From Deltaproteobacteria bacterium (GTDB taxonomy: Bacteria > Desulfobacterota > Desulfobacteria > Desulfobacterales > Desulfosalsimonadaceae): a stretch of 43,902 nt of DNA. How positions within the stretch are numbered: position 1 is the stretch's first letter; each line of letters opens with the position of its first letter. The notes under the pieces are model-generated. The model worked only from the letters and a program-made list of their open reading frames with translations. It searched no databases and had not been told where the DNA came from. Positions 1 to 43,902 of the stretch are shown here, piece after piece. The position numbers and the translations under genes were made by a program. The DNA is taken from positions 1-43,902 of the forward strand of contig JAADHK010000048.1 in assembly GCA_013151835.1 (NCBI GenBank), read 5' to 3'.

Positions 1-120
1 GTCGCGAAATGCTCGGAATACTATATGTATGCCTCCGCTTTCGTGACACCACTACGCCTTGTATATGGAACTTTATACTTAGCCATCTTTACCGGGTTGT
101 CTGACTTTTTACGAGATCAT
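1..120 (+). mobile_element. MITE-like palindromic element, copy A (cut by window edge)
   Basis: The window begins inside this copy, in the left arm of its central hairpin (GTCGCGAAA...). It continues through the loop region TATAT, the complementary right arm and the distal tail, and ends in GACTTTTTACGAG plus ATCAT. It matches copies C, D and E throughout, with scattered substitutions. Its 5' half lies outside the window, so a flanking duplication cannot be checked. Nothing in it looks coding. Bases 121-251, up to the first gene, show no clear promoter or RNA. Confidence 0.8.
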
Positions 121-6342: not shown

Positions 6343-6537
6343 ATGACGCATGGAAAGATAACAAAATCGCTGGCGCATTTTTGTAAAGACACCTGTCCGG
6401 TATGCACAAAGGGCCGTGAAAAAGGGGAGGGTGTTTTATTCACCATGATTAAACTGGAAGAAAATCTGTGCCCGGCATGCAGATCTTATAAGAAGGTGTA
6501 TGGAAAACCGGCACATGAAAAATTGATGGCGTCGTAA
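6343..6537 (+). CDS. Small two-CxxC protein, possible zinc-binding
   Basis: 64 residues from the ATG at 6343, with GAGG about seven bases upstream; an ATG at 6337 overlaps that site. The protein has two CxxC pairs, CPVC and CPAC, about 27 residues apart in a lysine-rich context, suggesting a small zinc-ribbon-like fold. I do not recognise the family. The last residues (MAS) and the stop codon are read from the first bases of palindromic element copy B, so the original C-terminus may have been replaced by the insertion. It is small, with no conserved neighbour, so it might not be expressed. Confidence 0.5.
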   Translation: MTHGKITKSLAHFCKDTCPVCTKGREKGEGVLFTMIKLEENLCPACRSYKKVYGKPAHEKLMAS

Positions 6538-6660
6538 AAAGTCCCATCTACTGCGTTGTAGTGTTTTTTCAGTCACTCGGAATACTATATGTATGCCTTT
6601 ATTCCTGAAAAACCACTACGCTTTGTATATGGAACTTTTAACTTGAGCCATCTTTACCGG
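6525..6660 (+). mobile_element. MITE-like palindromic element, copy B (variant arms, 3' truncated)
   Basis: It begins GATGGCGTCGTAAAAAGTC, like copies C and D, and keeps CATCTACTGCGTTG, CTCGGAATAC-TATAT-GTATGCC, CACTACGC and TTGTATATGGAACTTTT. The hairpin arm between these blocks is different: TTTTTTCAG on the left and CTGAAAAA on the right, against GTCGCGAAA and TTTCGCGAC in the others. It ends around CTTTACCGG and lacks the distal GACTTTTTACGAG end, so no target duplication is visible. Confidence 0.8.
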
Positions 6661-13677: not shown

Positions 13678-13731
13678 GTGGCCACCTTTTGATTTGTTTA
13701 TAAGAATAAATTTCCAAGAAATTAATTAATG

Positions 13732-13890
13732 ATGTACTCGTAAAAAGTCAGACAACCCGGTTACGATGGCTAAGTAGAAAGTTCCATATACAAGGCGTAG
13801 TGGTGTCGCGAAAGCGGAGGCATACAATAGTATTCCGAGCATTTCGCGACCCGCTACAACGCAGTAGATGGGACTTTTTACGACGCCATC
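13732..13890 (-). mobile_element. MITE-like palindromic element, copy C (full length, 8-bp flanking direct repeats)
   Basis: A 159-bp copy read on the minus strand: GATGGCGTCGTAAAAAGTC at one end, GACTTTTTACGAGTACAT at the other. The ends form imperfect terminal inverted repeats sharing TCGTAAAAAGTC. Flanks at 13724-13731 and 13891-13898 are both AATTAATG, an apparent 8-bp target duplication, although the left flank is itself a low-complexity AT repeat. Most of the element folds into a long hairpin around ATACTATTGTAT. It lies between the TetR gene and the adaptor gene of the efflux operon. Confidence 0.85.
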
Positions 13891-13926
13891 AATTAATGCC
13901 TGCAAAAATACCGCGACGCAGGATAA

Positions 13927-16203: not shown

Positions 16204-16339
16204 TCTTTAATTGACGCGCGTGAGTATCCCTGCTAAATAATTTTTCAAAAATAAGCCCGGGGAGTGCCGTTTCCGGTTTTTCCCGGCAGCCCCCACTTTT
16301 GACGAGAAACGGCTTCTTCCTCTTGGTGGGGGTTATTTT

Positions 16340-16498
16340 GATGGCGTCGTAGAAAGTCCCATCTACTGCGTTGCAGCGGGTCGCGAAATGCTCGGAATAC
16401 CATATGTATGCCTCCGCTTTCGCGACACCGCTGCGCCTTGTATATGGAATTTTCTACTTAGCCATCGTAACCGGATTAATTGACTTTTTTACGAGTCC
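16340..16498 (+). mobile_element. MITE-like palindromic element, copy D (full length, flanking direct repeats)
   Basis: A 159-bp copy that matches C along its length. It begins GATGGCGTCGTAGAAAGTC and ends GACTTTTTTACGAGTCC. Flanks at 16332-16339 and 16499-16506 are both GTTATTTT. Copy E continues with GT after GAGTCC, so the element may end two bases later; the duplication would then be only TATTTT. Compared with C, GTAG/CTAC in opposing arms has become GCAG/CTGC, a paired change that preserves the hairpin. The end lies 84 bases upstream of pyrE. Confidence 0.85.
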
Positions 16499-16582
16499 GT
16501 TATTTTTATCCGTGCTGAAATTTGATGTTCTGTGGTCGGACAGGCCGCCATGACGCCGACCTATACGGGAGATGAAATATCC

Positions 16583-29939: not shown

Positions 29940-29959
29940 GTGAGCGCTGTTGTGTATCG

Positions 29960-30050
29960 TCTTCCGTTTCCCTTCGCAGGCATTATCCTGATCAGGTATT
30001 AAGGGTCACCCCCATTCGGGTTCTCAGCCGGTTTCCGGCACCCCTAACGC
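29960..30050 (-). promoter_or_regulatory. TPP riboswitch (THI element)
   Basis: On the minus strand the conserved blocks appear in order: AGGGGTGCC, GGCTGAGA, ACCC, ACCTGATCAGGATAATGCC and GCGAAGGGA. Spacing fits the aptamer, with a short P3 arm. It lies in the 320-base gap upstream of thiC (29809-30128), followed by the intrinsic terminator. The remaining bases (30051-30128) presumably hold the promoter, but I could not assign boxes confidently. Confidence 0.95.
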
Positions 30051-30128
30051 TTTATTGCTGTTTTTACGATAAATGCCGCTGCACGGCAAAGTCAAGGAAA
30101 AGTTTGCCATAAACAGGAGGCGGGCCGG

Positions 30129-37174: not shown

Positions 37175-37514
37175 GATCTAATTGGCTCAAAATCTGATTC
37201 ATATGAATACCGTAATCTATTGAAGCATCGTACAAAAAATGAAGATCGGGTATGTAGCGCAGATCAAGCTCCTTGCCAAGGGCGCGGCGGATGAATCCCG
37301 ATGCTTTTTTAAATCCTTCGGCAGTGCTTTCCCTGTCGGCGACCTGGCCGGCGGTTACATAGTAAATCTTGGCCAGCTTCAGGTCGGCGGTCATCCTGAT
37401 CTTCGTGATCAAGACCGAAGCGAGCCTGGGATCTTTTATGGATTTACGCAGGATATCGGCCAGCGTTTCCTGGATAAGCCCGCTTACCCGGTCTGCTCGG
37501 GTGTATGGTTTCAT
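37164..37514 (-). CDS. rbfA: 30S ribosome-binding factor A
   Basis: 116 residues. The N-terminus (RADRVSGLIQETLADIL) and the KDPRLASVLITKIRMTADLK block, with a KH-like core, match RbfA. The C-terminus has DLRYIPDLHFLYDASID, the characteristic RxxPxLxFxxD pattern. It assists late 30S maturation around the 16S 5' helix. Its start overlaps the DUF503 stop, and its end overlaps nrnA, indicating tight operon packing. Confidence 0.94.
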   Translation of the reverse strand: MKPYTRADRVSGLIQETLADILRKSIKDPRLASVLITKIRMTADLKLAKIYYVTAGQVADRESTAEGFKKASGFIRRALGKELDLRYIPDLHFLYDASIDYGIHMNQILSQLDHES

Positions 37515-37798
37515 ATATTTAAAATTTCCGTTTCTTCACCGATAATCTCGGCCAAGCCTATGCTTTCGACAAAGCGCATCAGCCCGTCAATGCCGGAATC
37601 CATCTTTCTCCGGTCGTTTCCCGTCATGGAAAATCCGATTTGGGCGCGATCGTGTATGTCGTTTAAGGCCACCTCGGCAACAGAGGCGTTGAACCGGTTT
37701 TTCGTCTTCGAAACGATCGATTTAACGATTTTCCGTTTCTCCTTTAAGGAATGGCAATCGTGGAGCTTAAATGTGATCTTGCCGTAACCAAGCACCAT
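37511..37798 (-). CDS. DUF503 family protein (YlxP-like)
   Basis: 95 residues. The sequence HSLKEKRKIVKSIVSKTKNRFNASVAEV and the DRAQIGFS segment match DUF503, a small family found between infB and rbfA in many bacteria. It is predicted to be a compact ferredoxin-like fold; no enzymatic role is established. Start at 37798, overlapping rbfA at its end. Upstream lies palindrome F, which separates it from infB. Confidence 0.88.
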   Translation of the reverse strand: MVLGYGKITFKLHDCHSLKEKRKIVKSIVSKTKNRFNASVAEVALNDIHDRAQIGFSMTGNDRRKMDSGIDGLMRFVESIGLAEIIGEETEILNI

Positions 37799-37831
37799 GA
37801 TTTATTGTATCCGTTCACGATTATCTTCTAA

Positions 37832-37951
37832 GGCTTTGTAAAAAGCTCCGTATGCAAGGCGCACGAGTCGGGAAAGAGCGGAGGCGTACTTTTTGTACGT
37901 TGAGCCCTTTCACGGCGAGTGCAACGCCGCAGACGGACTTTTTACGAAGCC
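37832..37951. repeat. Long palindrome F, divergent relative of elements A-E, between infB and DUF503
   Basis: About 120 bp. On the minus strand it shares CGTAAAAAGTCC, GCGTTGC, GCTC, GCCTCCGCT and GCGCCTTG in the same order as copies A-E, but the centre is GTAC-AAAAA-GTAC and the arms differ. The ends (GGCTT/AAGCC) are inverted repeats. It starts three bases after the infB stop codon and lies inside the translation operon. No flanking direct repeat was seen. It could also form a strong RNA hairpin. Confidence 0.75.
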
Positions 37952-37954
37952 GTG

Positions 37955-40702
37955 TTATTCATATACCGGCTTAACCTCGACCAGGTAAAAGCATTCTATG
38001 ACATCGCCGGTCTTGATGTCGTTGAAATTTGCAATCCCGATACCGCATTCATAGTTCTGGGCCACTTCCTTTACATCATCCTTGAACCTGCGCAATGAGT
38101 CTATTTTGCCCTCGAAAACAATCACGCCGTCCCGTAAGAGCCGTATGGGCTGACCCCGCTGTATTTTTCCATCCATAACGTAGCTGCCGGCGATCGCGCC
38201 GATATTCGGTACGGTGAAGACCTGGCGGACTTCGGCACGGCCAAGGACCTTTTCATCGTACCTTGAGTCCATGAGTCCCACCATGGCGTTTTTTACTTCC
38301 TTGATCGTATTGTAGATAACATTGTAGTACCTGATATCAACGTTTTCTTCCTCCGCCTGCCGGGCGACCTTGCCGGACGGCCGGACATTAAAGCCGATAA
38401 TAATCGCGTTCGATACGGCGGCAAGTGAGATGTCGGATTCGTGTATGGTGCCGGTGGCTTCATGTACGATGTTGACTTTTACTTCGTCGGTGGTAAGCCT
38501 CGTCAGAGAATCCCTCAAGGCCTCTATGGAACCTTGGACATCGGCCTTGATGACCAGATTAAGATCCTTGACGACCCCTTCCTGCAGCTGTTCATAGAGT
38601 TTGTCAAGGCTCAAACGGCTCGTTTTCGCGAGCTCAAGGGAACGCTGTTTCTGAATACGGTGAGCGCTTACCTGTTTTGCGTCTTTTTCCTCGGCAACGG
38701 CGATAAATTCGTCCCCGGCCAGGGGAACTCCTGAAAGCCCTATTATTTCCACTGGAAGGGACGGGGTCGCTTTATCAACCGGCTCTCCACGGTCGTCGAA
38801 CATGGCGCGTATCTTCCCGTGATGCATACCGGAAACGACTGCCTCCCCCGCATGAAGCGTCCCTTCGGTTATGAGGACTGTGGCAACCGGGCCGCGGCCG
38901 GTGTCCATTCTCGATTCTATTATATACCCTCGGGCATGCTTGTCGGGGTTGGCTTTTAATTCGAGGAGTTCGGCCTGGAGGATGATCATGTCCAGCAACT
39001 CGTTGATGCCGGTTTTTGCCTTTGCGGAAACATTTACAAATATAGCGTCGCCACCCCAATCCTCTGCTGCGAGCCCTTTTTCCGCGAGTTCGCGTTTTAC
39101 CCGCTCCGGTTCTGCGTCGGGTTTGTCAATCTTGTTTACGGCGACGATAATGGGAACCCCGGCGGACTTTGAATGGTTTATAGCCTCTATGGTCTGGGGC
39201 ATGACCCCGTCATCGGCGGCAACAACCAGGATGACGATGTCCGTGACCTGTGCGCCCCTTGCCCGCATTGCAGTGAATGCTTCATGGCCGGGCGTATCGA
39301 GAAAGACAATCTCACCCCTGTCCAGGGTAACGTGATAGGCGCCGATGTGCTGGGTAATCCCGCCAGCTTCCCTTGAAGTAATTTTTGAGTGCCTGATGGC
39401 ATCCAGAAGCGATGTCTTGCCATGATCCACGTGGCCCATAATGGTAACAACCGGGGGTCGGAAAATAAGCTGTTCCGGGCTGTCAATTTCAGTTTTGATT
39501 ATGGCCTCTTCCTCGAATGATGCCCGTTCCACCTCGAACTGGAACTCGGCGGCCAGGAGTACCGCAGTGTCCAAATCTATGGTCTGGTTCACGGTGACCA
39601 TCATACCCATGCCCATGAGTTTTGCGATCAATTCGTTGGATTTTATACCCATCCGCTTTGCAAAGTCCGACAGGACAATGGTTTCATCCATCTTGATCCT
39701 TCGTTTTATGGCCTTGGGTATCGTAATCTGGGTCGAATGTTCCGACGGGTGTTTTGTAGCCTTTGATTTTTTTCGACCCTTGCGTGAACGGCCCTTGCGA
39801 TCATACAGGGCATTGCCTTCTACGATCTCCTTGCGGCGGAAGCTTCTTTTCTTTACGCCCTTCTTCAGCGTTTCGTTCTCTTCAACCGCAGGCACGCCCC
39901 CTTTTTTCTTTTTACCTTTTTTCCTGTCGAAAACCGGCGGAGCTGCCGGTTGAACAGGGGCTGCAGGAGCTGTTTTTGGGTACCGGGCCGGACCCGGAGT
40001 AGCCGGCTTTCTGGCTTTGACCGGCTTTCTGGTTTTGACCGGCTTAATTGGCTCGACCGGTTTTTCCGGAAGGCTGATAATCTTTGCTGCGGTGCCCTTT
40101 TTTTTACGTTTTTTTACAGGGGCTGCCGGTTTTTCATCATCTGCCGTTTCAGGGGATTTGTCGGTATCCGCCAAGGCCTTCTTACTCTTTTTAGCCTTCT
40201 TAACGGGAGGTGGCTGTATCTCAACCTCATGCTCGGTTTCTTGTTCGATGTCAGGAGCTTCTTGCCCATCTTTTTCTTCTTCTCCGGCTACCTCAATGGA
40301 GTCTTCAACGGGCGCTGCTTCAGCGGTTTTAGCAGATTTTAGGGCAGTCTCTTTGGCTGTTTCATCCGCCTCTTTTTCCGAACCGGCCTTTTTTACTGTT
40401 TCATCGGTTTTATCGGGGGTTTCTTCGGTTGCGGTCTCCGCCGGTAGCGCGGCATCCGTATCGGGCTTGGCCCGGGGTTTTCGCCGCCTTCGGATCACCG
40501 TGCTTTTTACACGGGTTTCTTCGACGACTTCGGCCGGAGCCGGCTTGCCGAACAGCTCTTCCCGTACCCTTTCGACGACATCATCATCTATGGAATTGGC
40601 ATGCGAACTGACGTCTATGCCCATGGTCTGGAGTTTATCCAGCAGGTCACTGTTTTCCATGTTCAGTTTTCTGGCAACTTCATATACTCTTTGTTTTGCC
40701 AT
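37955..40702 (-). CDS. infB: Translation initiation factor IF-2
   Basis: 915 residues. An IF2N domain at the start ([19 protein letters not shown]) is followed by a long low-complexity Lys/Glu/Ala/Pro-rich linker (about 60-330) and a second IF2N domain. The GTPase has G1 GHVDHGKT (about 421-428), G3 DTPGHEAF (about 467), G4 NKID (about 521) and G5 SAK, then domains II-IV ending in the fMet-tRNA-binding part. It places initiator tRNA on the 30S subunit. GGGGGATGG lies just before the ATG. A hairpin stands in its leader, and there is no ylxR between nusA and infB. Confidence 0.97.
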
Positions 40703-42989: not shown

Positions 42990-43065
42990 TGGAGCGGGCA
43001 ACGAGATTCGAACTCGCGACACCAAGCTTGGGAAGCTTGTACTCTACCAGCTGAGCTATGCCCGC
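42990..43065 (-). tRNA. tRNA-Gly (anticodon CCC)
   Basis: 76 bases on the minus strand including an encoded CCA. The acceptor stem GCGGGCA pairs with TGCCCGC, the discriminator base is T, the anticodon stem CAAGC/GCTTG encloses TTCCCAA (anticodon CCC, reading GGG), and the T-loop is TTCGAAT. The D-arm is GCTCAGCTGGTAGAGT, with one wobble pair. An intrinsic terminator follows. The gene stands alone between merR and rimP. Confidence 0.97.
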
Positions 43066-43803: not shown

Positions 43804-43809
43804 TTTGAC

Positions 43810-43902
43810 GGACTCGTAAAAAGTCAGACAACCCGGTTACGATGGCTAAGTAGAAAGTTCCATATACAAGGCGTAGTGGTGTCGCGAAAGCGGAGGCATA
43901 CA
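43810..43902 (-). mobile_element. MITE-like palindromic element, copy E (cut by window edge)
   Basis: Read on the plus strand, the copy begins GGACTCGTAAAAAGTC and follows the tail and right arm of copies C and D, up to GCGGAGGCATACA, where the window ends near the hairpin loop. The distal flank is GACG followed by AT-rich sequence; the other end is not seen, so no duplication can be tested. Confidence 0.85.

Follow-up and report, generated by a model that had tools for sequence, protein, structure and literature searches.

A palindromic element at the infB stop codon of a Desulfobacterales genome, probably a truncated copy of an abundant MITE-like family

Bacterial MITEs, such as Correia/NEMIS, ERIC/RU-1 and RUP, are described in the consulted parts of PMC2229807 as short hairpins with terminal inverted repeats and target duplications, which occur in high copy number and mostly outside genes. 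ERIC elements are palindromes of about 127 bp found between co-transcribed genes, and their effects on upstream mRNA depend on their orientation (PMC2229807, PMC3049150, relevant passages). In pneumococci, BOX, a modular repeat of Firmicutes, encodes the stop codon of 36 annotated genes, right at the 3' end of each, without strong evidence of gene truncation in the sections of PMC3049150 considered here. REPs of the GTAG and CGTC superfamilies are palindromes of 20–40 bp with a tetranucleotide tag. According to the excerpts of PMC3733652 at hand, they are partly linked to REP-associated tyrosine transposases (RAYTs) and lie within 20 bp of the 3' ends of ORFs, and the termini of GTAG REPs supply stop codons. 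E. coli REPs located no more than 15 nt from a stop codon can stall ribosomes (PMC12306157, in the part consulted).

The element analysed here, F, lies between infB and a gene for a small DUF503-type protein, and it resembles each of these systems in some respects. The family to which it belongs shares with the MITEs of PMC2229807 all the features listed above, but differs from them, as far as the consulted parts describe them, in its sequence, in its ends (TGAYGG..CCRTCA instead of TA-ended) and in its 6-bp duplications; moreover, its F-type copies are docked at stop codons in one orientation. With BOX, the F subfamily shares the docking at stop codons and its harmlessness, although the two are likened by description, and F docking involves mostly one end, one orientation and most copies. 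Like REPs, F is palindromic and lies near the 3' end of an ORF, but members of its family are about 122–207 bp long and have long terminal repeats and 6-bp duplications. The likeness to ERIC, in size and in position between genes, is likewise one of description, F being known here from its sequence alone. Taken together, the BOX and REP reports (PMC3049150, PMC3733652), within the parts consulted, indicate that the stop-docking behaviour is of a known kind. Among the literature matches listed, we found neither this family in Desulfobacterales nor its 6-bp duplications and one-ended orientation, which is weak evidence, as most subscription journals were outside the coverage.

The element at infB and its family

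F was found in a contig of 43,902 nucleotides from Deltaproteobacteria bacterium (GenBank assembly GCA_013151835.1, contig JAADHK010000048.1); "the window" below means this whole stretch of DNA. The positions of F, its neighbours and the A-E-type copies in the window are collected in Table 1.

Table 1. Features of the window that bear on element F (minus strand is the sense of infB and F)
Feature	Position	Strand	Remarks
F element	37830..37954 (originally predicted 37832-37951; 122-bp core 37832-37953)	-	Identified by motifs, alignment and fold
infB stop codon TAA	37955..37957	-	0 nt from the modelled end of F; natural C-terminus VEVKPVYE
infB, translation initiation factor IF-2	37955..40702	-	TIGR00487, 4.7e-259
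infB-DUF503 spacer left beyond F	37799..37829	-	31 nt
DUF503-type small protein (name from the original prediction)	37511..37798	-	Match in 39 of 40 genomes, own included
Complete A-E-type copy	13730..13891	- (same sense as F)	162 bp, both terminal repeats, 6-bp duplication ATTAAT
Complete A-E-type copy	16339..16500, ends approximate	+	Terminal repeats, 6-bp duplication TATTTT
A-E-type copy	6523..6660	+	Partial or divergent
A-E-type copy	1..118	+	Cut by contig start
A-E-type copy	43806..43902	-	Cut by contig end

Read on the minus strand, F has the sequence CGGCTTCGTAAAAAGTCC...GTACAAAAAGTACGCCTCCGCT...GCGCCTTGCATACGG... It is a near-palindrome of 122 bp, which begins with CACGGCTTCGTAAAAAGTCC directly after the infB stop codon, ends with CTTTTTACAAAGCCTT, and has GTAC-AAAAA-GTAC as its hairpin centre. 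The original prediction had placed here a distant relative of five other copies (A-E) in the window, carrying CGTAAAAAGTCC, GCCTCCGCT and GCGCCTTG in the same order as those copies around a different core, and both the order of the motifs and the core were as predicted. When up to two mismatches were allowed, CGTAAAAAGTCC had 13 matches in the window versus 4.1 expected, and none of 100 shuffles reached 13. The predicted position of F inside the gene string nusA-infB-DUF503-rbfA-nrnA-truB was confirmed by NCBIfam, which identified TruB, NrnA, RbfA, IF-2 and NusA as its neighbours, while the DUF503 protein had no NCBIfam hit. The C-terminus of InfB in front of F (..LVEVKPVYE) is like that of homologues (e.g., ..EEIKPVIE).

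Two copies, at 16343-16463 (72% identity, E 4e-9) and 13768-13887 (71%, E 7e-7), could be aligned with F over about 120 bp; the similarity was weaker for the copies at 43844, 19-84 and 6528 (E 1e-4 to 4e-3). F and copies A-E form one family, and alignments of copies support the prediction that this family has subfamilies with different centres. The description of F as a distant relative held for its kinship to A-E but not for its isolation, as F is a member of an abundant subfamily of its own. In its own genome (3.33 Mb in 147 contigs), the best 40 of 248 first-look candidates all matched F at E<=8e-36, and the 39 of them other than F were 86-93% identical to it. The half motif of F occurred at 61 sites with no or one mismatch, which were F-like, and at 182 sites with up to three mismatches, versus one site for the reversed control; among the matches listed, most of the three-mismatch sites were A-E-like. 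The copies of the family are thus many and dispersed with unrelated flanks, as is typical of MITEs, and the outcome named beforehand as contrary to the prediction, a genome with no related element elsewhere, was clearly not what we found: F has dozens of relatives.

The contig starts and ends within A-E-type copies (positions 1-118 and 43806-43902). This suggests that the repeat interrupts the assembly, and our count probably falls short of the copies in the genome. At several loci, F-type and A-E-type copies adjoin or enter each other (L190 1929-2261, L199 1881-2232, L233 1959-2327, L229 1844-2121).

Beyond this genome, 18 of the 194 genomes of the order, own included, matched F at E<=1e-8; the order was taken to be Desulfobacterales on the basis of the named best matches to InfB. 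The match in G001, a member of another genus of the same family, was 93% identical, but only three F-type copies were among the 40 scored there, too few for a replication of the docking analysis described below. In G190 the identity was 86%, and elsewhere it was mostly 71-83%, with additional 36-base matches at 94%. A search of PLSDB for a spread of F by plasmids gave no match.

Comparison of the copies revealed what a complete element of this family looks like. In the sense of infB, copies start with TGACGG..CGTAAAAAGTC or TGATGGCGTCGTAAAAAGTC, followed by the palindrome; in complete copies the palindrome is followed by a tail and then by a second terminal repeat, GACTTTTTACGAGTCCRTC. The tail is 16 nt long in A-E types, about 50-60 nt in F types, and 9 nt in the copies of genomes G117 and G119, and full lengths are about 146-174 bp for A-E-type and about 195-207 bp for F-type copies. 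Full copies have the terminal inverted repeats TGAYGG..GTAAAAAGTC at both ends, as expected of MITEs. Duplications of 6 bp (called when at least five of six bases matched, with small offsets allowed) flanked all 12 full A-E-type copies away from stop codons, all 14 full copies of G117, 17 of 31 full copies of G119 and 7 of 15 full F-type copies; since up to five errors were allowed in the far repeat, a few of these repeat and duplication calls may be due to chance. The duplications appeared only once the longer tail and the second terminal repeat were included. At the ends of the 122-128 bp form of F copies, an offset scan for a duplication on 38 copies was negative, and the longest word shared by the flanks of 54 F copies had a mean length of 3.44, versus 3.42 in permutations.

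The full relatives, with their terminal inverted repeats and 6-bp duplications, make the family MITE-like. F itself keeps only one terminal inverted repeat, and no tail, far terminal repeat or target duplication was found at the infB copy. F is therefore probably a 3'-truncated, immobile copy of a MITE-like family.

Docking of F-type copies at stop codons

To describe the position of copies relative to genes, contexts of about 4 kb were examined for 56 of the 61 best F-like sites, one two-mismatch site and four A-E-type sites. We called a copy docked when its TGACGG end (in sense) lay at -2 to +5 nt relative to the stop codon that closes an ORF of 100 or more codons, where ORF ends are those of open frames and not of curated gene calls. 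By this definition, 32 of 53 full-hairpin F-type copies were docked, 18 of them at exactly -2, so that the stop codon consists of a T and the GA (16 copies) or AA (2 copies) of the element. In a further seven copies the ORF extends past the element end, by 13 or 45 nt; no ORF entering an F-type copy in sense was seen to continue beyond 45 nt. Four copies lie 26-148 nt from a stop codon, and ten have no such stop codon within 150 nt. The opposite end of the element was found at -2 to +5 in only 2 of the 53 copies. Docking was expected for 1.1% of random points and for 3.0% of random intergenic points with random orientations (binomial p 3e-35). It was rare among A-E-type copies (1 of 16, or 2 of 19 under a looser cut), and in other genomes it reached 10 of 40 copies in G119 and 4 of 15 in G117 (p 2e-7 and 8e-4, respectively, with the null taken from the own genome of F); of 16 copies from various other relatives, 4 were docked. 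A stop codon at -60 to +5 was missing for 14 F copies; four of these precede a long ORF on the other strand, with 11-20 nt between the copy and its ATG, and two of the four directly adjoin an AAGGA-like ribosome-binding site.

Docked copies differed from undocked ones in their completeness. A recognisable far repeat was lacking in 25 of 33 docked F copies, and a duplication in 31 of 33. When five groups of copies were pooled and 15 copies entered by an ORF were set apart, a far repeat was present in 23 of 53 docked versus 57 of 76 undocked copies (p 4e-4), and a duplication in 11 of 23 docked versus 45 of 57 undocked full copies (p 0.014); as the copies are related to each other, these p values are indicative. 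Thus, older copies seem to be enriched at stop codons. However, 7 of the 14 docked copies of G117 and G119 still have both repeats and duplications, indicating that direct insertion at stop codons happens. Elsewhere in the own genome, a full-length F-type copy with a duplication sits right at the beginning of a gene (L224, around 1949-2144), the translation of which, judged by eye, resembles anthranilate synthase component II.

The genes that carry docked copies include atpD, lpxA, rpiB, ilvB, trpS, amtB, infB, a nuoJ-like gene, and those of IMP dehydrogenase and sulfate adenylyltransferase/APS kinase. Thirty of the 43 listed ORFs at the docking end were scanned for protein families, and five had none. 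Among the 25 family-matched genes, 18 match a model to within four positions of its end, a count that includes some matches below the curated cut-off and a NuoJ that is complete in one of nine models only. Six genes were uninformative, and one, that of EF-G (L208:2219-4099), falls about 14 positions short of the end of the family model and has the TGA of the F-type element as its stop codon. Among genes with an informative model, these results do not bear out the idea that the element truncates genes or supplies premature stop codons, EF-G being the exception.

Several docked copies separate genes that belong together: atpC starts 47 nt after atpD, nuoK 23 nt after nuoJ, and ilvN 49 nt after ilvB, and glyA follows rpiB (the glyA start is uncertain; five downstream genes were scanned, one of which had no family). 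Linked pairs like atpD-atpC are usually co-transcribed. If so, the copies between atpD and atpC, nuoJ and nuoK, and ilvB and ilvN indicate that the element is not a strong terminator.

Folding, expression signals and the infB-DUF503 gap of relatives

The whole of F folds far better than shuffled sequences, on both the minus strand (z -6.2) and the plus strand (z -7.6). In all 53 F copies, the strand complementary to the message of the docked gene folds better than the message strand (mean -71 vs. -58 kcal/mol), and the same advantage was seen in 35 of 37 copies of G119 and in 14 of 14 of G117. The 16 of 38 found in a lower-scoring set (29-60) say little, owing to its mixed make-up of A-E copies and reverse-strand F hits. 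As a speculation, the opposite orientation, which would put the stronger hairpin into the message, may be less tolerated. Over 101 aligned copies, 16 of 33 pairs show at least two Watson-Crick types, and this compensatory variation indicates that the hairpin was kept while its sequence changed. We place no reliance on a strand-specific asymmetry of wobble pairs, in which G-U exceeded A-C by 295 to 52 in the plus-strand consensus, because it depends on the strand whose consensus fold is used (47 to 183 with the minus-derived consensus, 28 to 10 for the nine pairs shared) and is partly circular.

A simple scan found no terminator-like site in 37700-38100. The U run of F lies inside a paired arm, and F as an intrinsic terminator, with a GC-rich stem followed by a U tract, was dismissed. 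Scanning for promoter-like matches gave two (0.5 expected), in infB and DUF503, and none inside F. In searches with Rfam 15 at the gathering threshold, only a TPP riboswitch (29952-30055, minus strand; RF00059, 75 bits) and a tRNA gene upstream of the nusA-infB string (42993-43065, minus strand; RF00005) were found in the window, and none at F.

The original prediction had proposed a comparison of the infB-DUF503 gap in close relatives. We searched 40 genomes, own included, none of the others being of the same species or genus; the DUF503 protein was matched in 38 relatives, 29 of which gave loci and 27 a measurable gap. By eye, F was absent from all 27 of these gaps, and it was also absent from the infB-DUF503 gap in 23 named loci. 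The presence of F at this site is not conserved. Only 3 of the 27 gaps are as long as F, and their median length is 46 nt, versus 31 nt here without F. The gap of G018 holds a related A-E-like element in the opposite orientation. Those of G001, G010, G030 and G035 (loci L048, L056, L051 and L062) contain unrelated tandem or palindromic repeats, e.g., AAGGTTGAAGGCTG tandems. These differing repeats indicate that the gap accepts repeats but keeps none in particular, as if it was a favoured or harmless landing place.

Origin and meaning of the docked copies

Taken together, these results make it likely that F is a 3'-truncated, MITE-like copy of a Desulfobacterales family that survives harmlessly at the infB stop codon. 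As dozens of like copies exist, often against stop codons, F most likely landed in this operon and was tolerated there, rather than serving to control it. Of the two possibilities that had been offered for this position, a tolerated insertion or an adopted role, tolerated insertion fits best: F is absent from all the measured relatives, the C-terminus of InfB is natural, and copies lie between other linked genes. Within an abundant family F is nothing out of the ordinary, and no special role is required to explain where it sits in the operon. The original insertion would have been made by a transposase acting on the terminal repeats, which in the case of F, a copy without duplication, is concluded from its relatives. 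Copies at stop codons would survive, since they would not change a protein, their TGAC or TAAC end could even restore a stop codon, and they would spare the next ribosome-binding site, whereas copies elsewhere would be lost. F would then be transcribed as a hairpin spacer of roughly 122 nt in the infB-DUF503 message and be tolerated for the most part; any effect on the yield of the downstream genes would be mild. Several observations sit uneasily with this explanation. Survivor bias alone would need to act very strongly to leave 60% of copies at stop codons, the frequent absence of the far repeat and of the duplication from docked copies (25 and 31 of 33) is not explained by simple insertion and retention, and docking is rare among A-E-type copies (1 of 16). 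Furthermore, no transposon with such ends was found in the Y1_Tnp loci described below or, by eye, among the repeat pairs of G176 and G212. Still, we prefer survival at the least harmful place over targeting or end-precise deletion. The latter two would make docking mechanistic: either insertion prefers gene ends, or the terminal repeat drives one-sided deletions of the spacer up to a boundary that cannot be lost, such as a stop codon or a ribosome-binding site. Such an origin of docking, which would account for the incompleteness of docked copies, is possible though unlikely. It would also fit the precision of the docked end, which overlaps the stop codon in 18 of 53 copies, the position of 4 of the 14 no-stop copies 11-20 nt before an ATG (two against an AAGGA-like site), and the EF-G gene, which ends in the element about 14 positions short. 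It is opposed by the 7 of 14 docked copies of G117 and G119 that keep both repeats and duplications, and one-ended deletion of a MITE is speculative.

The adopted role put forward in the original prediction, in which the hairpin of F would attenuate, cleave or protect the message and so set the amounts of DUF503, rbfA, nrnA and truB relative to infB, is doubtful. The strong fold of both strands and the compensatory changes in 16 of 33 pairs over 101 copies could be taken as signs of such a role, and F lies within 15 nt of the stop codon, the distance at which E. coli REPs stall ribosomes according to the consulted part of PMC12306157. However, F is missing at infB in all 27 measured relatives, there is no terminator-like or promoter-like site inside it, the same element follows many unrelated genes, and the infB transcript carries the weaker-folding strand, as do the messages in all 53 copies (-58 vs. 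-71 kcal/mol). A role of F specific to infB is thus unsupported, as judged from sequence comparison. It is very improbable that F is a REP/BIME-type palindrome moved by a RAYT, even though its high copy number, palindromic form and extragenic position near gene 3' ends recall REPs (PMC3733652, in the portions at hand) and the genome has five Y1_Tnp genes. The element is about 122 bp long or longer, versus 20-40 bp for the GTAG- or CGTC-tagged REP/REPIN unit, so that this class was rejected by unit size, and full members have terminal repeats and 6-bp duplications. The loci of the five Y1_Tnp (RAYT-like) genes (L175-L179; about 3.3 kb, with about 1.5 kb on each side) contain no F or A-E copy, their one match being of 17 bases (E 0.4), and mobilisation by RAYT was rejected on these grounds. 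Least probable of all, almost to the point of dismissal, is a conserved structured RNA of the translation operon, such as a riboswitch or leader: the stable fold would suit it, but F matches no Rfam family at the gathering threshold, has dozens of copies at unrelated genes, and is absent from the gaps of the measured relatives. Integron attC sites were also considered and dropped, since the elements lie at housekeeping genes and show no R' or R'' boxes by eye.

Although survival at harmless sites is the preferred explanation, there is some chance, if a small one, that the F subfamily has its own route to stop codons. This would be either a targeting of sites near a stop codon or an end-precise, one-ended deletion ratchet, which removes spacer until the TGAC end of the element comes up against an indispensable boundary. 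If true, such a route would have rewritten the 3' ends, and often the stop codons too, of dozens of genes in one genome, including many housekeeping genes. In any case, the coincidence of one hairpin end with gene stop codons in one orientation, as at atpD, nuoJ, ilvB and infB, is a general pattern that can be tested, and the docked copies, the undocked copies with duplications and the fuller copies of relatives allow survival, targeting and deletion to be told apart. It is also a warning for annotation, as a repeat adjoins or contains the stop codons of many genes in this genome.

The listed pairs of terminal repeats in G176 and G212 are about 120-220 bp apart, and no clear pair at 0.8-3 kb was seen by eye. 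In both genomes, the same terminal-repeat pairs enclose elements of several sizes within this range, which suggests that a superfamily of elements shares one mobiliser.
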